NCBI RefSeq assembly: GCF_018141405.1
Contig: NZ_CP058648.1
Location: forward strand, 1,069,001 to 1,133,000
Direction of reading: 5' to 3'
From: Serpentinicella alkaliphila
GTDB taxonomy: Bacteria; Bacillota; Clostridia; Peptostreptococcales; Natronincolaceae
DNA: 64,000 nt
Shown: piece after piece, positions 3,679 to 52,207 of the stretch
Position numbering within the stretch: the stretch's first letter is position 1
Layout of the letters: the number at the start of each line of letters is the position of its first letter
Program-made: the position numbers and the translations under genes
The notes under the pieces: model-generated
What the model was told of the DNA's origin: nothing
Database searches by the model: none
Seen by the model: the letters and a program-made list of their open reading frames with translations, nothing else

Positions 3679-3894
3679 AAAAAATTGATGTAAATATAAA
3701 AATCAGGTTATGTCAATATGATCAAATAATAAGGTAAGCAGAAATATAGCAATGGTTATTAAAGACTTTGTGAGGTACAAAGTGTATTTAAAAAAGAATT
3801 AATCATAGTACAACTTAATTTTGGTATAAAATTCTAAAAAAAAGAAAAAAATAGGAATAAAATCCTAAATTTTAAATAAGATTTAATAAATATA

Positions 3895-3968
3895 ACAGGA
3901 GACGAAGAAGTACGCTTAATAATTGGGCACTTTAAGGCGTATGGAGTGAGTGGTGCAACCGACCTGAG
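3895..3968 (+). ncRNA. Cyclic-di-GMP-II riboswitch aptamer (RF01786 class)
   Basis: The core AATTGGGCACTT and, 28 bases on, GTGGTGCAACCGACC closely match the class II c-di-GMP aptamer known from Clostridium acetobutylicum, as I recall that sequence. Supporting structure is visible: GGCAC/GTGC pairing, a pseudoknot between GTACGCTT (3910-3917) and AAGGCGTAT (3933-3941), and a closing P1 helix between CAGG (3896-3899) and CCTG (3963-3966). It lies about 150 bases upstream of a sensor kinase gene. Class II aptamers bind c-di-GMP and in clostridia control motility, pili and surface proteins. Confidence 0.88.
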
Positions 3969-4007
3969 TTATTGTTGTAATATACAATAGTTTAGGTCGA
4001 TTTTTTT
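3960..4007 (+). terminator. Riboswitch expression-platform terminator
   Basis: CGACCTGAGTTATTGT pairs with ACAATAGTTTAGGTCG (about 16 pairs including G-U wobbles) and is followed by seven T. Its 5' arm reuses the aptamer's 3' P1 strand (CCTG) and part of the conserved CCGACC. Ligand-stabilised P1 should therefore block the terminator, so I infer that c-di-GMP turns the downstream genes on. Confidence 0.85.
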
Positions 4008-4118
4008 AAAAGCAAAATGAGACAGGTCCTGTAACATCAATATATAAGAGGGATGCTCTTAAATTAAAATGATTTTTTTTTGTTAATAAAGTAACAGTTA
4101 GATAAAGGAGGGGTTTTC

Positions 4119-5825
4119 TTGTTAGAAATTAAAGAATACAGGAAAATATCTTTATTACAAGGATATCCAGAGTTCATTAAAATCACTTTTATTTTTAGAT
4201 ATTTAACTTTATTGATTACATCATTGTTCTACTTATTTGGAAGTGTGGAACACTCCTTTCTAAGAAAATGGATCATTATATTCTGCATAAGTTTATCTGC
4301 AATAGTACTTAATCTATTATACATAAAAAGTGAGCAATCTAAATATAATACGATAGTATTAATCCTAATTGAAACTATAGGAAATTCAGCAATACTCATT
4401 CCATCTGGAGGGTTAAATAGCCCATATGTATGGTATTCACTGAATACAATTTTAGTAGCTGCAGTGAAACTGGATTATAAGGTTTGTTGGTTAAATTTAG
4501 CTATATATTTATTTAATTCAACTTACATTACTAACTTATTAGTTAATGAACAAGTTAATTTGTTTGAAGCTTTTGTTAAAGAATCAAATCTAATACTAAG
4601 TTTTGTTTTAATTACAGGAGTTATATTACTTTTAGCCAAATATGCCCAAGAAAATGAAGAAAAAACTAATAATTTAAAGATAGCTAACAGTAAACTAATC
4701 TATGCAAACCATAGAATAAAAGAATCAATGAATCATATTATGGATTTATATAAATCTGTTGAGCTGTTTGCATCACAAGAAAATAGTAGAGATTTAATTA
4801 ATATAATAACAGAGTATTGTAATAAAGTAATAAGAACTGAGACTGTAATATTTATGAGTCAAACCAAAGGTATTACGCCAATAACAATTAGGTCAGAAAT
4901 GGAACAATTAGATAAAAAAATTGCAAATGAGTTGCAAAGCAAAAATATTTGCTTAGCTAACTGTGAGACTCTCGAACATATTATAAATGATAAAAGGTTT
5001 TTGTTTGTATCGGTGGGGAACAATTGCAAAAACTTTGGCGCTATCGGAATAGATTTGGATTCAAGTTTAAAAATAAATACAGAAGAAGAGGTAGTAGAGC
5101 AGTTAAAGTTAGTAGCAAATCTTAGCTCTATATTATTTGAGAAATTCGAGCTTCAGCAATTTGCAGAGGAGCTACTAATAAATAAAGAGCAAAATAGAAT
5201 AGCTGATGAGATACATGATGGAACACTACAAAGATTATTTAGCACTTCATGTGGAATTTATGAAACGATTAAAAGACTTAAAAAAAGCAGTCTAATAGAC
5301 ATTGAAAGGGATTTAAATATTATTAGGAAATCACTTAATGAAACAATGAGAGAACTGAGAGAAACCGTATACGGGCTTAGTTGGAAGAAGAATGGAGAAA
5401 ACAACTTTATTGCACAAATACTAAATTTTATAAATGATACTAAGGTATTAAACAATATAAATATAGAGTTTAGTCTAAATGGTTCAGATGAAATGCTTTC
5501 ACTCAAGCAAAAGAAGGCACTATATAGAATAATTTGTGAAGGAACGAGTAATGCCATAAGGCATGCAAAAGCAACTAATATATACATAATTCTTACCTTA
5601 GATAGAGAGTATACTACTTTAGAGATTATAGATAATGGTGTAGGCTTTGACATAAAAAGAGTAGAGAGTGAGAATAAGATGGGATTAGGCATTGGAAATA
5701 TAAGGAATTTGGTTAATACATTAAGAGGGGATATTTATTTTAACAGCTCAATCGGTGGAGGAACGATAATAGAAATTACGGTTTCAAATAATGAAAATCT
5801 TTTAGTTAAGGAGGAAGTCGGATGA
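4119..5825 (+). CDS. NarL/DegS-type membrane sensor histidine kinase
   Basis: A 568-residue kinase with a TTG start behind AAAGGAGGGG. About six N-terminal membrane segments (residues 25-175) are followed by a coiled coil (about 178-215), a GAF-like region (about 220-345), and a HisKA_3 dimerisation domain with the H-box ADEIHDGTLQRL (phospho-acceptor His366). The ATPase domain has an N-box near GTSNAIRHA (Asn478), DNGVGFD (about 505-511) and MGLGIGNIRN. This layout is typical of NarX/DegS/LiaS-type kinases paired with LuxR-type regulators. Its stop overlaps the start of the partner regulator. It is the first gene behind the c-di-GMP-II riboswitch, so its level should follow c-di-GMP. The signal sensed is unknown. 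Confidence 0.93.
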   Translation: MLEIKEYRKISLLQGYPEFIKITFIFRYLTLLITSLFYLFGSVEHSFLRKWIIIFCISLSAIVLNLLYIKSEQSKYNTIVLILIETIGNSAILIPSGGLNSPYVWYSLNTILVAAVKLDYKVCWLNLAIYLFNSTYITNLLVNEQVNLFEAFVKESNLILSFVLITGVILLLAKYAQENEEKTNNLKIANSKLIYANHRIKESMNHIMDLYKSVELFASQENSRDLINIITEYCNKVIRTETVIFMSQTKGITPITIRSEMEQLDKKIANELQSKNICLANCETLEHIINDKRFLFVSVGNNCKNFGAIGIDLDSSLKINTEEEVVEQLKLVANLSSILFEKFELQQFAEELLINKEQNRIADEIHDGTLQRLFSTSCGIYETIKRLKKSSLIDIERDLNIIRKSLNETMRELRETVYGLSWKKNGENNFIAQILNFINDTKVLNNINIEFSLNGSDEMLSLKQKKALYRIICEGTSNAIRHAKATNIYIILTLDREYTTLEIIDNGVGFDIKRVESENKMGLGIGNIRNLVNTLRGDIYFNSSIGGGTIIEITVSNNENLLVKEEVG

Positions 5826-6460
5826 TTAATATACTAATTGTGGATGATCATCCCCTAGTTAGGAAGGGGCTAGTATCAATTTTATCACTTGAGGATGATA
5901 TTAACGAAATCAAAGAAGCCGCTAACATTAAAGAGGCAACGAATTTACTTGAAACATATAACCCACAAATCACAATTCTAGATTTAAACTTAGGAAAAGA
6001 ATACGGATTAGATTTGATTAGTAAAGCTAAGTCAAAAACTGATAGCAAATTTATTATTATAACCTCTTCTTATAAAAAGGAAGACTTTGAAAAAGCTCAA
6101 GAAATAGGAGTAGATGGATACATATTAAAGGATGCTTTTACAGAAGATATCATATACGCGTTAAGTATAGTTAAGAGGGGAAAAAAGTTTATTGATAATG
6201 AAATATTGCAACAGAGCATGAAAAATAATAAAAGAGAAAAAGAAAAATTAGACGAGTTAACTTCTAGAGAGATGGAAGTTCTAGAAGAGTTAGGTAAAGG
6301 GCAAAGCAATATTGAAATAGCACAAACACTTTATATCTCACCTTATACAGTAAAGAAGCATGTCAGTAGCATATTAAGCAAGCTAAATTTACATCACCGG
6401 ACTGAGGCAGCACTTTATATTAATAGTTCATTAAAATTAAAGCGATCTACGATTATTTGA
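5822..6460 (+). CDS. NarL/LuxR-family response regulator
   Basis: A 212-residue regulator. The receiver domain (1-120) has the acidic pair Asp8/Asp9, phospho-acceptor Asp54 (ILDLNLG) and Lys103 (YILKDAF). The LuxR-type helix-turn-helix (about 145-205) contains LTSREMEVLEELGKGQSN and YTVKKHVSSILSKL. The ATG overlaps the kinase stop by four bases, so it is the kinase's partner. The camelysin-like gene starts 25 bases downstream, which makes the fibre locus its obvious target, either in one transcript or by activation of a later promoter. Confidence 0.95.
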   Translation: MINILIVDDHPLVRKGLVSILSLEDDINEIKEAANIKEATNLLETYNPQITILDLNLGKEYGLDLISKAKSKTDSKFIIITSSYKKEDFEKAQEIGVDGYILKDAFTEDIIYALSIVKRGKKFIDNEILQQSMKNNKREKEKLDELTSREMEVLEELGKGQSNIEIAQTLYISPYTVKKHVSSILSKLNLHHRTEAALYINSSLKLKRSTII

Positions 6461-6485: not shown

Positions 6486-7016
6486 TTGGCAAGAAAAAAA
6501 AGAAAGGGAATTGGTATAGGAAAACAAATAATAATAGTTTCTTGTGTAATTGCACTGAATCTAGTAGGAATAAGTTATGCTCTATGGAATACAGGAACGA
6601 TTATTGAATCAACTGTTTCTACTGGGTATATTAATCCTGTATTTACTACAGGGGGTAGAACCTATTCAGTAGGAACACTGGATTTACTAACGAATGAGAT
6701 TGTTGAGTTGGAAATAGAAGTTGATCATGATGCTGGAACCGTGCCTCATAAATTTATAGGTTACGATGTATATTCATATCCAACGAATATAGATATTAGT
6801 TTTACAGGTAATGGTATAAAACTTACTGCTCCTGAAATTCCTGGAGAATACACCTATGAGGTAGTACTAAGGTATATTCAGTATAATGGCTTTGGTTGGG
6901 AGAAAGATTTAACGATAAAGGGCGGAATAAATGTAACGGAACCACTTCCAGTTTTGGGTACAGATACAGTTGGGATTGAAAAAATAGAATTTGATAGCGG
7001 ACTACAAGAAAAGTGA
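6486..7016 (+). CDS. Camelysin/TasA-like secreted protein (SipW-type signal)
   Basis: A 176-residue protein with a TTG start behind AGAGGAGGAG. The basic N-terminus (MARKKRKGIGIG) leads to a hydrophobic stretch ending ISYALWNTG, the form of signal peptide cut by SipW-type peptidases in TasA and camelysin proteins. After cleavage the mature chain has the usual small beta-rich start (TVSTGYINPVFT). The rest looks like an immunoglobulin-type beta domain (GTVPHKFIGYDVYS; GEYTYEVVLRYI). It is smaller than TasA (about 260 residues) and could be a minor fibre component. It follows the response regulator directly and precedes the signal peptidase gene. Confidence 0.75.
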   Translation: MARKKRKGIGIGKQIIIVSCVIALNLVGISYALWNTGTIIESTVSTGYINPVFTTGGRTYSVGTLDLLTNEIVELEIEVDHDAGTVPHKFIGYDVYSYPTNIDISFTGNGIKLTAPEIPGEYTYEVVLRYIQYNGFGWEKDLTIKGGINVTEPLPVLGTDTVGIEKIEFDSGLQEK

Positions 7017-7104: not shown

Positions 7105-8310
7105 GTGGTAGTTTATAGTGTTTTGCAAGGCATTATACTTAAAAAAAAGTGGATAATATTGACTTCATTAGCAATAGCAATATATTTAGTAGAGAACTCA
7201 CCGTTAGTCACGGTATTAGGGAGTTATAAATTTAATTATGTGATAAAGCCTATTTTATGGAGTGGGCTAATTATTCTTGTGTGGATGTTTCCACAGGTAA
7301 GATCTCAGACAAAGTTAAAGTATAGAGAAAATATAAATATGTGGGCGTTTAATTTCGCAGTTATGTTTATATTAATTTCAATTGTGGCAGGATTGTTTGA
7401 CGGACTAGGAAAAAGCCCGTATAACCATTCTGTCTCAGGATTATTTTTTAATATCATATTTGTTGTACCTAAATTGGTGGCCCTAGAGGTTATAAGAAAC
7501 TATATAGTAAATACAATATTAAAAGAAGAGAAGTTATATATTTTTATTATAATAGCCTCTATTATAACTATTGTAAGTTTTCAGTTAAGTAGAATTTTAT
7601 CCTTAGAGGGATTAGATAGCAAAGTACAGTTTGTAGGACAGTACTTTGCACCAGAATTTTGTCATAATCTACTCGCTACCTATTTAGTTTTTATTGGAGG
7701 ACTTATACCTTCTATTATTTACATGGGAATTTTGCAAGGTTTTCATTGGATGTCTCCAATATTACCAGATTTAAAATGGATAACTTCAGCCTTAATCGGC
7801 ATACTAGTTCCAATGTTTTTTCTTATTACTATTCAGAGTATTCACCTTACACAGAGTAAAAAGCTAAAAAGAAGAGAAAAAACCCAGGAGAGCCCTATAA
7901 GTTGGATGACGACTAGTGTGTTATCTATAATGATTGTATGGTTTTCTTTAGGAGTATTTCCAATATATCCATCAGCAGTAGCTACAGGAAGTATGGAACC
8001 AATTATCTACCCTGGTGATGTGATTTTAGTGAAGCAGAATATTATAGTAAATGAACTTCAAGAAGGCGATGTAATACAGTTTCAAAGAGGCAATATTTTA
8101 ATAACTCACAGAATTATTGATATAGAGGAGGATAGAGGGGCATTAGTAGGTTTTGTAACCAAAGGTGATAACAACTCTTCTGTAGACGTGGAAATTGTCA
8201 AGCCTGAATATGTAAGAGGCAAAATTGTAAAAGTTGTCCCTAAAGTAGGTTGGCCTACTTTGCTATTTAGGAGTAGAAAGAATGTAAATTTAGATGAAAT
8301 TGTGTTCTAG
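7105..8310 (+). CDS. sipW: SipW-type signal peptidase I with polytopic N-terminal domain
   Basis: A 401-residue membrane protein with a GTG start behind GCGGGGGA. The C-terminal 120 residues are an ER/SipW-type signal peptidase: catalytic Ser296 in ATGSMEPIIYPGD, His335 in LITHRIIDI (in place of the lysine of the bacterial Lep type) and Asp355 in TKGDNN. Ordinary SipW has about 190 residues. Here an extra 270 residues with around eight hydrophobic segments precede the peptidase and are not part of the catalytic family. It should cut the SipW-type signals of the two neighbouring camelysin/TasA-like proteins at the outer face of the membrane. Confidence 0.88.
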   Translation: MVVYSVLQGIILKKKWIILTSLAIAIYLVENSPLVTVLGSYKFNYVIKPILWSGLIILVWMFPQVRSQTKLKYRENINMWAFNFAVMFILISIVAGLFDGLGKSPYNHSVSGLFFNIIFVVPKLVALEVIRNYIVNTILKEEKLYIFIIIASIITIVSFQLSRILSLEGLDSKVQFVGQYFAPEFCHNLLATYLVFIGGLIPSIIYMGILQGFHWMSPILPDLKWITSALIGILVPMFFLITIQSIHLTQSKKLKRREKTQESPISWMTTSVLSIMIVWFSLGVFPIYPSAVATGSMEPIIYPGDVILVKQNIIVNELQEGDVIQFQRGNILITHRIIDIEEDRGALVGFVTKGDNNSSVDVEIVKPEYVRGKIVKVVPKVGWPTLLFRSRKNVNLDEIVF

Positions 8311-8379: not shown

Positions 8380-8567
8380 GTAAGTCTAAATGAGTAAAGT
8401 ATGGTTTGCATTTAAAAAAACTTGGTTCTCTAGAGGTAGTATAAATTCTACTTTTGTGGGATTTGAGCTAAAGAAATCAGGGCTATAATTAACATATAGC
8501 AAGTATATTAAAGATATAAATGCTACTTGCGAAATTACAAATCAAATTAAAAGGAGAGGAATTATTA

Positions 8568-9290
8568 ATGAAAAAAACTAAATTTATTGCAATGGCATTA
8601 GTAGTTGCAGTTATGATGATGGGGGCAGGTTATGCATTCTGGACTGATCAACTAACAATCACGAGTACGGTATCAACTGGAGAGTTTAGGGTTGATTTTA
8701 CCGGACAAGGGATGTTTGGAAAAGAGAGATATAAAGCAAATCCAAATGCATATGCAAGTTGGAGAGATGGACATTATATGGGTAAAGCAGATAATGTACA
8801 AGATCCTGGGACTTTCATTGTTAATAAGGTTGACGATAAATCATTAGAAGTAAAAATTAGTAATATGTATCCAGGTACTATGGTAAAGATTGCAGCTAAG
8901 GCCCAAAATAACGGAACAATACCAGCGGTAGTAAACAATGTTGAGATTGAAAATATTAATGTTAATGACAAATTAGCAAAAGTATTAGAATTTAGTGGTA
9001 AGGCAAAAATATTAAGAAATAATGGGTCAGTTGAAAGTATTGATGTTCCGAATTCAAGACTAGGTGGAGCTGATGGAAAAACTTCTCTAGAAGATGCATT
9101 AAATAGTGCACTTAAAGGTATAAGATTAGAACCAGGTGAGTCTGTGGAGTTTAGCACTGCGGGTGGAGGATCACATGCACTAACTATAGAACTACCTGTT
9201 TCAGTCAAAAATGAAGATGATGTTGAAAATGCAATAGCTAACTTCAAAATTATTATTAATTGGGAACAACATAACGCAAAATATTTCTAA
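8568..9290 (+). CDS. TasA/CalY-like fibre protein
   Basis: A 240-residue protein. The start used (MKKTKFIAMALVV) follows AAGGAGAGGA; the open frame extends 16 codons upstream without a binding site. A SipW-type signal ends GAGYAFWTD, followed by TITSTVSTGEFRVDF, the typical start of mature TasA/camelysin. MYPGTMVKIAAKAQNNGTIPA (split here from residue about 102) recalls the donor-strand groove region of the TasA fold, in which subunits polymerise into amyloid-like fibres. A separate TATAAT box lies at 8484-8489, so it may have its own promoter as expected for an abundant structural protein. Confidence 0.85.
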   Translation: MKKTKFIAMALVVAVMMMGAGYAFWTDQLTITSTVSTGEFRVDFTGQGMFGKERYKANPNAYASWRDGHYMGKADNVQDPGTFIVNKVDDKSLEVKISNMYPGTMVKIAAKAQNNGTIPAVVNNVEIENINVNDKLAKVLEFSGKAKILRNNGSVESIDVPNSRLGGADGKTSLEDALNSALKGIRLEPGESVEFSTAGGGSHALTIELPVSVKNEDDVENAIANFKIIINWEQHNAKYF

Positions 9291-9453: not shown

Positions 9454-10542
9454 TTGAAACGCAAAATAAGAAAAAAATATAGGATGAGTATAATATATGT
9501 ATTGTTATTTTTAATTGGAATCACATTTGTTTCAACTTATAGAGGAATTAAATACCCTGGATTTGAAGAACACAAGAGTTCTGTTTATGAATATAAAAAA
9601 CTTTCGAATATAAATTATGAAGTATTATTAAAACCTAACATTGTATATAATAACAGTAGTCTTCCAGAGGGACAGATTTATGTTACAGAGTTTGTAGATT
9701 ATTTAGATGCACATTTTAGGTACGAATTTATGGGAGAAAAGAGTTCAGAAATAAAAGGAGAATATAAGATAATAGCTGAAGTTAAAGGATATACAATAGA
9801 AAACAAAGAAGAGAAAGATATCTGGACAAAGGAATATACACTTTTAAATAGCACAGAATTTAGTGAAATAGGTAAGAGAATATTAATAGAAGAGAAAGTA
9901 TCAATTGATTTAGATAAATACAATGAATTTGTTAAACTAGTTACTTCTGAATCAAAAATTGGATTAAATAGTAAATTAATTGTATCAATGATTATTAATA
10001 TGGATGTAACTACAGATCATGGAAAAGTTCAAGAAACCATAAATCCAACACTAGTAATTCCGCTTAATGTTGGTTATTTTAGTATTGATAATCTTGGAAC
10101 AATTTATGATGTAGGCTCCATTGATGAAATTAAAAATGTTAAACTTCCAGTTGAAAAACAATTAATATTAACATATGTAATCATTTTAGTTATTTTTATT
10201 TCTGTTTTAATAAGTATGAAGTTTCTAACTACTAATGGTGATGAAGATGATAATGTTCTTAAAATTATCAAAATGATATTTAAACAACATGGTAATCGAT
10301 TGGTTGCTATTACAAATGAATTAGATACTACTTACGAAAATATGTATAGTGTGAAAGGAATAGAGGATTTAGTTAAAATAGCCGATGAAGTAGAAAAACC
10401 TATTATATATAAATATAGAAACAACATTAAAGAGATTTTAGAGTTTTATGTTCTAGATAGTCCGTCAATTTATGTATTTGATTTGAATCAGGCACTAGAA
10501 GCAGATAATAGAGTTATTGTAGAGTCCAAATCAAATAGTTAA
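9454..10542 (+). CDS. DUF5305-like membrane protein of the fibre locus
   Basis: A 362-residue protein with a TTG start behind AAAAGGAGGGG. One membrane segment lies near the N-terminus (about residues 12-30) and another at about 237-256 (LTYVIILVIFISVLISM), leaving an extracellular domain of about 200 residues and a cytoplasmic tail of about 100. The order LLKPNIVYNN, then YVTEFVDYLDAHFRYEF, then a beta-rich region resembles DUF5305, a family often found beside SipW-like peptidases in archaea and clostridia. The function is unknown; its place suggests help in export or assembly of the camelysin-like proteins. Confidence 0.65.
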   Translation: MKRKIRKKYRMSIIYVLLFLIGITFVSTYRGIKYPGFEEHKSSVYEYKKLSNINYEVLLKPNIVYNNSSLPEGQIYVTEFVDYLDAHFRYEFMGEKSSEIKGEYKIIAEVKGYTIENKEEKDIWTKEYTLLNSTEFSEIGKRILIEEKVSIDLDKYNEFVKLVTSESKIGLNSKLIVSMIINMDVTTDHGKVQETINPTLVIPLNVGYFSIDNLGTIYDVGSIDEIKNVKLPVEKQLILTYVIILVIFISVLISMKFLTTNGDEDDNVLKIIKMIFKQHGNRLVAITNELDTTYENMYSVKGIEDLVKIADEVEKPIIYKYRNNIKEILEFYVLDSPSIYVFDLNQALEADNRVIVESKSNS

Positions 10543-10604: not shown

Positions 10605-10743
10605 GTATAAAAATAAATATATAGACGAGTATACTACTGATGGACTATTAAATTAAATCAAAAGTAGCACTAAAAGTAACCTTTTGAATGGAATAAATTG
10701 ACGATAATTATATAAAATATAGTAAAGATAGGTAACTTGCTTT

Positions 10744-11994
10744 ATGGAGGTGTTTAATATCAAGAATTTCTTTAAAAGAGTAGGGAGATTTTTAATTTTT
10801 ACTATGGTAATGATTTTTATCACAAGTAGTCTAATGCAAACTTCATATTCAACTTTTTCACTAGGCAAACCTAATATAATGGTAACAATATTTAGCAATG
10901 GGACTATTGAAACTGAAGGCAATTTATTTGGAGAGGATTTATGGTATCCTGGTAAAGAAAAGAGTGGAGTTATACGCATTAATAATTATTATAAACCTAT
11001 ATATACCGATGACATTGGCTTTGAAATAAATCTAGAAAAGTATAACAGAATATATACTAAAGACAGTATATACAATGAGTTTAATAACAAAATGAGACTG
11101 ACATTAAGTCGAGGGAAGTTAGATGCAATTTCAACTAAAATTATTGATAATGTTAGTTTGGAGCAATTAATAAAAGGATACAATTTTGAAGAAAGAAAGA
11201 GATTCATAATTGAAAAAAATGACTTTGTGGATTTAAAGTACACTTTAACTATGCATGAAGAGGCAGGTAATGAGTTGCAAAATATAACCGCAACAATATC
11301 GATGACGCTAAATGTTAATGAGAGAGCAGCTCATGAACAACCAATCAATGGAGGTAAGGGTAGTAATGGCGGTAATGCTAGTAATGGCGGTAATGGTAGT
11401 GATGGATGGGGAACTAATATTGAAAAACCCGTTGAAAAACCAATTCCTTGGGATATTAAAGATCACTGGGCTAAGAACTGTATATTGTGGTTAATTGAAA
11501 AAGGGATAATCACTGGTTATGAGGATGGGACGATAAGACCAAACAACTATATTACACGGGCAGAGACTGCTGCGTTACTAGCTAGGGCATTCAAACTAGA
11601 AACATCTGATAAGCTATATTCTGGGTATCTAGACCCAATCCCTTATTGGGCGAGGGGATATATACTAGCTTTAACAGAACAAGAAATCTTTATTGGTTCT
11701 CCTGCAAATGGAGGCAGGGTGTTTATGGCTAATGCCTTTATTACAAGAGAACAGACGGTTGCTGTATTTATAAGGGCTTTTAGTCTTTGCTTAGAGGAAG
11801 AAGTAGAGTTAGGTTTTATTGATAAAGACGAAATATCCGAATGGGCATTAGATTATGTTAAGGCTGGAGTTGGTAACAGAATCTTAAACGGATATCCAGA
11901 TAATACTTTACGGCCTAAAAATAGTATTACAAGAGCTGAAGTATTCGCCATTTTATGCAGACTCTTAAAAATGAGTCAGGAAGTGGTAAATTAA
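10744..11994 (+). CDS. SLH-domain surface protein with camelysin-like N-terminal domain
   Basis: A 416-residue exported protein. A signal sequence (about residues 13-37) is followed by a beta-rich domain (about 38-200) whose DLWYPGKEKSGVIRINN resembles the camelysin/TasA fold. Next is a Gly/Asn/Ser-rich linker (about 203-226), then three S-layer-homology repeats (about 236-285, 297-350, 356-410) with TRAETAALLARAF, TREQTVAVFIRAF and TRAEVFAILCRLL. SLH repeats bind pyruvylated wall polymers, so it probably anchors the fibre to the wall, the role TapA has in Bacillus. The start is uncertain: the best Shine-Dalgarno, GGAGGTG at 10746-10752, lies just inside the ATG used here and is better placed for an AUC codon at 10759. 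Confidence 0.85.
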   Translation: MEVFNIKNFFKRVGRFLIFTMVMIFITSSLMQTSYSTFSLGKPNIMVTIFSNGTIETEGNLFGEDLWYPGKEKSGVIRINNYYKPIYTDDIGFEINLEKYNRIYTKDSIYNEFNNKMRLTLSRGKLDAISTKIIDNVSLEQLIKGYNFEERKRFIIEKNDFVDLKYTLTMHEEAGNELQNITATISMTLNVNERAAHEQPINGGKGSNGGNASNGGNGSDGWGTNIEKPVEKPIPWDIKDHWAKNCILWLIEKGIITGYEDGTIRPNNYITRAETAALLARAFKLETSDKLYSGYLDPIPYWARGYILALTEQEIFIGSPANGGRVFMANAFITREQTVAVFIRAFSLCLEEEVELGFIDKDEISEWALDYVKAGVGNRILNGYPDNTLRPKNSITRAEVFAILCRLLKMSQEVVN

Positions 11995-12072
11995 ATGAAG
12001 TTTCAAGTAGAAGTAATTCGCAAGCAGTATCAAAGAAGTTAATGCATGATCAGTAAACAATTAACTTAAAAG

Positions 12073-12102
12073 CGGTATGGGAAAAATCTCATACCGTTTT
12101 AG
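12073..12102 (+). terminator. Intrinsic terminator closing the fibre locus
   Basis: CGGTATG and CATACCG form a hairpin followed by TTTTAGTTT. It lies about 80 bases beyond the SLH gene. Confidence 0.85.
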
Positions 12103-51826: not shown

Positions 51827-51867
51827 AAAAAAGACCATTCCTATCCCATATATGGGACGAAATGGTC
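51827..51867 (-). terminator. Second T-box terminator (proximal to trpE)
   Basis: GACCATTTCGTCCCAT pairs with ATGGGATAGGAATGGTC, followed by six U. Its 5' side overlaps the antiterminator pairing region next to the CCGCG T-box. Confidence 0.9.
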
Positions 51868-51925
51868 GTTAAATCGCGGTGCCACCCAATTTAGCAATTG
51901 CTATAGACCTTGGGATTGTCGTAAG

Positions 51926-51964
51926 AAAATAAAAAGCACTTCATCCCTTTTGGGACGAAATGCT
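51926..51964 (-). terminator. First T-box terminator
   Basis: AGCATTTCGTCCC pairs with GGGATGAAGTGCT around AAAA, followed by UUUUUAUUUUC. It shares the TTTCGTCCC arm sequence with the second terminator, suggesting module duplication. Confidence 0.9.
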
Positions 51965-52207
51965 GAATTTCGTTATGCCACCCAATGCTTATAAGCATTT
52001 GCTCACTTAATCAGATACAGAGTTTAAAACTCGATATCATACCTCTATAACGTGAGGACACGGCATCGGCTACTATAATTCACCTAGCATCTCATAGATC
52101 CATTCCTTCTATACCTTTGTACCGGACCTTTCACCAGACGCCGGCTCGCTAAAACAAATTTATAAAAGTACTACTTCTAATCATCGACTTATATATAATT
52201 TAATTTA

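Follow-up and report, generated by a model that had tools for sequence, protein, structure and literature searches.

The DNA analysed here, called the window, is a stretch of 64,000 nucleotides from the genome of Serpentinicella alkaliphila. The locus in question begins with a class-II c-di-GMP riboswitch aptamer and an intrinsic terminator, followed on the same strand by the genes for a sensor histidine kinase and a NarL/LuxR-type response regulator (Table 1). Behind this pair lie the genes for a small secreted protein, a SipW-like signal peptidase, a TasA-like fibre protein, a DUF5305 protein and an SLH-domain surface protein, so the riboswitch does stand, as the original prediction had it, ahead of a two-component pair and a fibre locus. 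The gaps between the genes are short up to sipW and the fibre promoters carry a candidate operator, so that the pair and the fibre genes look like a single locus.

Table 1. Features of the riboswitch, two-component and fibre locus, in window coordinates
Feature	Position	Strand	Basis or remark
Class-II c-di-GMP riboswitch aptamer	3889..3973	+	RF01786, 72.2 bits, cut-off 53.5
P1 5' strand	3889-3899		
Pseudoknot, GCAC (loop) with GUGC	3927-3930 with 3953-3956		read from sequence
P1 3' strand	3963-3973		11 nt
Intrinsic terminator, 16 bp + U-run	3960..4007	+	0/200 shuffles as stable
Terminator 5' arm	3960-3975		
Terminator loop	3976-3983		
Terminator 3' arm	3984-3999		followed by ATTTTTTT
Sensor histidine kinase	4119..5825	+	Pfam HisKA_3, HATPase_c; TTG start; AAAGGAGGGG at 4104-4113
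NarL/LuxR-type response regulator	5822..6460	+	Pfam Response_reg, GerE
Small secreted protein	6486..7016	+	SipW-type-looking signal sequence, partial similarity to TasA-like protein
SipW-like signal peptidase	7105..8310	+	TIGR02228 81.1 bits, cut-off 51.85; Pfam Peptidase_S26
Promoter-proximal motif half upstream of tasA	8443..8464	+	unsupervised motif search, 9 loci
TATAAT before tasA	8484-8489		
TasA-like fibre protein	8568..9290	+	AbpX, TasA profile matches; structural match 8aur
DUF5305 protein	9454..10542	+	Pfam PF17231, 111.6 bits
Diverged motif upstream of SLH gene	10657..10696	+	by eye against relatives; matrix missed it
SLH-domain surface protein	10744..11994	+	Pfam SLH
Terminator-like hairpin	12069-12100		behind SLH gene

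The catalytic histidine of the kinase, H366, is invariant in seven orthologues. The small secreted protein has no Pfam or NCBIfam match; counterparts occur at the equivalent place in relatives. The signal peptidase does not reach the curated cut-off of the Bacillus SipW equivalog model NF046067 (70.2 against 190) but scores above the cut-off of TIGR02228, a less narrow signal peptidase model, and is therefore called SipW-like. The fibre protein is a similar case. The profile built from 15 relatives has matches to AbpX, an archaeal bundling protein (1.5e-16), and to TasA (8e-4). In the structural comparison, the predicted model, whose mean pLDDT is 71.7 with the first 80 residues poor, has the TasA fibre structure 8aur as its best match (Z = 8.3), the only one at Z ≥ 8 among the 995 chains aligned to it. 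The curated TasA/camelysin models are just missed (Peptidase_M73, 16.2 against 22.5; TIGR04088 SipW-type signal, 18.3 against 19). Since it resembles solved TasA in fold and profile but falls below the curated family models, the protein is described as TasA-like and is not filed as a family member.

The aptamer matches the class-II model from end to end (model positions 1-84 of 84, E = 2.7e-14 in the 64-kb search), above the curated cut-off, with 8 of the 11 P1 pairs formed in the alignment to RF01786 and the GCAC/GUGC pseudoknot in place. The c-di-GMP-II class originally assigned is thus confirmed, with its conserved core and pseudoknot. The span given for them, 3895-4007, ends correctly at the end of the terminator's U-run; its start misses the first 6 bases of P1. 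Rfam finds only two matches in the whole window, this aptamer among them, and no group I intron. At the 5' junction, an A replaces the U of the consensus UGA. This substitution, together with the fact that a bit score does not tell ligand specificity, could point to a relic or to a sensor of another dinucleotide, with the hairpin behind it acting as a plain attenuator or terminator. Such a reading is very unlikely, since the score is near those of the genome's other two class-II aptamers (70.9 and 76.7 bits), the aptamer of a relative (G015, 76.4 bits) has the identical A, and the position of the aptamer is kept in 10 of the 12 close orthologues described below. The preferred reading is that this aptamer presumably binds c-di-GMP. 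According to the Rfam models, the whole genome has the two further class-II matches and seven class-I matches, and it also has 24 GGDEF matches, so that c-di-GMP signalling through RNA is usual in S. alkaliphila.

The terminator with its tail, folded alone, reaches -18.7 kcal/mol (z = -5.9). Since the 3' strand of P1 falls entirely within the 5' arm of this hairpin, the aptamer and terminator folds are mutually exclusive, and the leader has the terminator, incompatible with the ligand-bound fold, that is expected of a transcriptional ON riboswitch. Over 3889-4007, the terminated form has the lowest energy. The aptamer's nested pairs are worth only about -8.5 kcal/mol (pseudoknot and ligand left out), so the ligand-free default should be termination, and ligand binding to the aptamer should prevent it, because all of the P1 3' strand lies in the terminator. 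The simplest reading, termination by default and read-through with ligand, is strongly predicted, and both the mutually exclusive terminator and the ON direction proposed originally are supported by this overlap. An OFF switch, in which the ligand promotes termination, can be given almost no weight: the direction is a computed prediction, and a longer leader fold pairs the P1 5' strand otherwise, with downstream sequence, but the terminator takes the aptamer's own P1 3' strand and the core-adjacent stem, both here and in 9 of 11 leaders compared, and the class-II switches of C. difficile, all four, are ON in the available text of PMC6200980. For the predicted ON switch, a promoter at the start of the aptamer is only suggested, by a TATAAT just upstream in three relatives (G012, G009 and G015); the sigma-70 scan gives 46 promoter-like sites against 53.9 in shuffles, which is no excess.

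A sample of 393 genomes from the order was searched for relatives of the kinase, with E 1e-35 as the limit. Three candidates per genome were scored and matches may be missed, so that the count is a lower bound: at least 23 of the 393 genomes have a match. In its own family, the kinase is present in 6 of 20 genomes. Twelve of the matches, those with E no higher than 1.7e-145, are close; the remaining 11 are distant. The close set consists of the S. alkaliphila kinase, G003, G012, G009, G015 and G018 (family f1), G074, G088, G093, G123 and G111 (f11), and G181 (f2). The ten that have the class-II aptamer at the head of the kinase gene cluster come from all three families; in G181, two genes lie between the aptamer and the kinase. 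In the other two, G003 and G111, no class-II aptamer is found up to E 1, which suggests that the kinase-regulator pair can work without the riboswitch. Among the 11 distant matches, a class-II aptamer is found only in G279, at 53.9 bits, just above the cut-off; the other distant loci were searched at the gathering threshold only (L081-L084, L119, L120) or up to E 1 (L118, L121-L124). Absence says little in G096, where the contig starts about 120 bases before the kinase, and in G036, where it ends about 285 bases before it. A genome contig search with the kinase returned one distant record only.

Gene order is largely kept among the 12 close loci. The pair, the small protein, SipW, TasA, DUF5305 and SLH genes are all present in seven (S. 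alkaliphila, G003, G012, G009, G074, G088 and G093). G015 has no SLH gene in the stretch examined; in G111 the DUF5305 gene precedes TasA and the stretch examined again has no SLH gene. The G018 contig stops after the kinase-regulator pair, and in G123 and G181 a different gene set surrounds the pair.

The terminator was compared in 11 leaders, the 10 close ones with an aptamer and that of G279, by a strict rule (a hairpin with five or more T in its tail and a 5' arm overlapping the P1 3' strand). Nine of them have such a terminator, overlapping the P1 3' strand by 6 to 11 nt. The leaders of G074, with a 13-bp stem (by eye) and a poor tail, and G093, with an imperfect stem, fail the rule, and the hairpins of G015 and G181 are unexceptional against shuffles (13 and 28 of 200). 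The P1 3' strands vary between leaders. They pair better with their own terminator arm (28 of 5000 permutations) and with their own P1 5' strand (43 of 5000) than with the corresponding strands from elsewhere; these figures are not strict probabilities because the leader sequences are few and related. The same design is present in 10 of 19 other class-II riboswitches of the relatives under a looser rule (overlap of 4 or more, -7 kcal/mol or better), so it is common in the class and not special to the kinase locus. These 19 controls are L047-L075 without the kinase loci L049, L052, L055 and L060, the below-cut-off L071-L075 and the contig-end L063.

The gap before tasA is 252-423 bases long in nine loci. 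An unsupervised search of these gaps gives one motif, with scores of 70, 94 and 120 at three widths, against 33-40, 43-50 and 54-57 in six shuffles each. In the loci checked by eye, a TATAAT box follows some 19 bases after the end of the motif. Seven of the nine tasA loci have a second, inverted half-site farther upstream, with the consensus TGGTACAAAAGTAGTAG. Of the 7 other loci with an SLH gene, 5 have an oppositely oriented site ahead of it (L076, L077, L078, L111 and L112, scores 16.3-22.2; absent from L113 and L114) by a matrix built from these seven upstream half-sites, which in random sequence gives 19 hits above 12 per megabase. Across 19 genomes, the pattern TNGNACAAAAGKAGTA matches exactly 9 times; 8 of these matches fall within kinase/fibre loci, and a reversed control pattern has 7 matches in those genomes. 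The full pattern is absent from the S. alkaliphila genome, where the tasA promoter retains only the promoter-proximal half. The inverted repeat is a candidate regulator site, or operator, to which the regulator encoded in the locus would bind. Since the riboswitch leaders have no strong matrix site, autoregulation of the pair is not supported.

The aptamer, the terminator, their mutual exclusion, the gene order, its conservation and the promoter motif can all be read from the sequences compared. These features as a whole are best explained by a class-II ON switch that acts on the two-component system and the following fibre genes; taken with the regulator's probable action on the tasA and SLH promoters, described below, this explanation has a probability of roughly three in four. 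Without ligand, the P1 3' strand would be drawn into the 16-bp terminator and transcription would stop near 4007. When c-di-GMP is bound, this strand would be kept by P1 and the pseudoknot, the terminator would be blocked, and transcription would read through into the kinase and regulator genes. It is by way of this predicted direction and the gene position that c-di-GMP would raise the level of a sensor system, as first proposed. Because the gaps are short, read-through past the regulator probably extends to the small secreted protein and SipW.

A second layer would build on the first. The phosphorylated regulator probably activates the separate tasA and SLH promoters at the conserved inverted-repeat site, as the motif and the parallel with BsaRS of C. 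perfringens suggest. Fibre output would then need both high c-di-GMP, which provides enough regulator, and the kinase's own signal, in an AND-like feed-forward. We give an even chance to this fuller arrangement, a two-layer AND gate conserved in several families of the order, in which c-di-GMP would set the level of the pair through the terminator and the signal-sensing pair would activate the TasA-fibre and SLH promoters through a locus-specific operator. Alternatively, the ON switch may serve the pair and the genes on its transcript, while an unrelated regulator owns the motif and runs tasA and SLH, with no AND gate. The owner of the motif is a candidate only, and the motif has diverged in the window's own genome, both of which suit this alternative; it is nevertheless unlikely, since the location of 8 of the 9 exact matches in these loci fits a dedicated local regulator and, in the available text of PMC7395162, an operon-encoded pair does this very job in C. 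perfringens.

The principle of both layers is already known, as class-II ON control of CmrRST and two-component control of the sipW-bsaA fibres. In the available parts of the sources, the signal transduction system cmrRST of C. difficile is under the control of one of that species' four class-II riboswitches, which is ON (PMC8844915, PMC11477304, PMC6200980); its regulation through a class-II riboswitch is positive (PMC8844915, PMC11477304), and CD630_32670, behind Cdi-2-2, is 18.8-fold up in RNA-seq with raised c-di-GMP (PMC6200980). Cdi-2-2/cmrRST resembles the present locus in its class-II aptamer, its ON direction and its signalling operon with a sensor kinase (PMC8844915, PMC6200980). It differs in having two regulators with the kinase and an invertible promoter switch, and the same parts describe no fibre genes behind it, whereas the SipW-TasA locus of S. 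alkaliphila begins, behind its riboswitch, with one kinase-regulator pair. The other C. difficile class-II switches, those of the adhesins CD2831 and CD3246 and of type IV pili, share the class, the ON direction and surface functions, but their direct targets are the adhesin or pilin genes themselves, reached in one case through a group I ribozyme (PMC11477304, available text); the S. alkaliphila switch would target a sensor pair first. The original prediction had set this locus apart from the pili and adhesin genes for which the class is better known. This contrast was overdrawn, given the cmrRST precedent and the TasA-type fibre genes, which are surface-matrix genes of the kind usually under c-di-GMP control.

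On the fibre side, the sipW-bsaABCRSD operon of C. perfringens likewise encodes a two-component pair along with SipW and secreted filament proteins. The available text of PMC7395162 describes BsaRS, the operon's own pair, as indispensable for sipW operon expression, with BsaR binding the sipW promoter. In that operon, the pair follows the fibre genes and is transcribed by read-through, and that text mentions no c-di-GMP riboswitch outside its reference list, whereas in S. alkaliphila the pair comes first, behind a riboswitch. The TasA fibre of B. subtilis (PDB 8aur, 5of1) is alike in the fold of the predicted model and in its SipW-linked gene context. It has only about 12% identity to the TasA-like protein in the structural alignment. 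We know of no control of B. subtilis TasA by a c-di-GMP riboswitch.

In the open-licence literature, searched by titles and abstract starts, no published description was found of a class-II switch and two-component control of TasA fibres in one conserved locus. The locus appears to unite riboswitch control of a signalling system with two-component control of TasA-like fibres, and it supplies a candidate operator, so that the way in which c-di-GMP reaches the protein matrix in these bacteria is now directly testable. Should the riboswitch alone prove right, the locus adds one more ordinary case to a well-studied class. The second layer, if it holds, is of more interest than the riboswitch itself. 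The inner (c-di-GMP) and outer (kinase) decisions on the matrix would then be multiplied within one cluster.

Some relatives have other arrangements of c-di-GMP aptamers. Two have switches of two classes in series (L113:12393-13657 and L114:12183-13442), a class-I aptamer before the gene adjoining the pair and then a class-II aptamer before the kinase. Another has a single class-II riboswitch followed by two consecutive kinase-regulator pairs (L078:3702-8956). Tandem class-II switches ahead of a putative surface anchor gene are described in the available text of PMC9481103. Outside the window, the S. alkaliphila genome has an array (L042:3036-3428; G000:C1 near 1601034-1601427) of a c-di-GMP-I-GGC aptamer (RF03167, 61.6 bits, cut-off 59) and then a pair of class-II aptamers separated by 2 nt. 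Directly downstream are an ORF whose end, LPKTG, we take to be a sorting-type motif, and an ORF that is presumably sortase-like. The last P1 3' strand of the array (CCTTTCTTT) and the Shine-Dalgarno region (AAAGAGAGGAG) are complementary, so control may well be translational here. Leaders of a similar kind occur at L047, L048 and L057. A tandem of two class-I c-di-GMP aptamers (L042:8156-8380) lies ahead of a secreted ORF, presumably transglutaminase-like. In the window itself, the minus strand has an ORF at 1425-2633 that we take to be a relative of coenzyme F420-0 glutamate ligase, and a T-box leader at 51850-52193 (RF00230, 107.5 bits).
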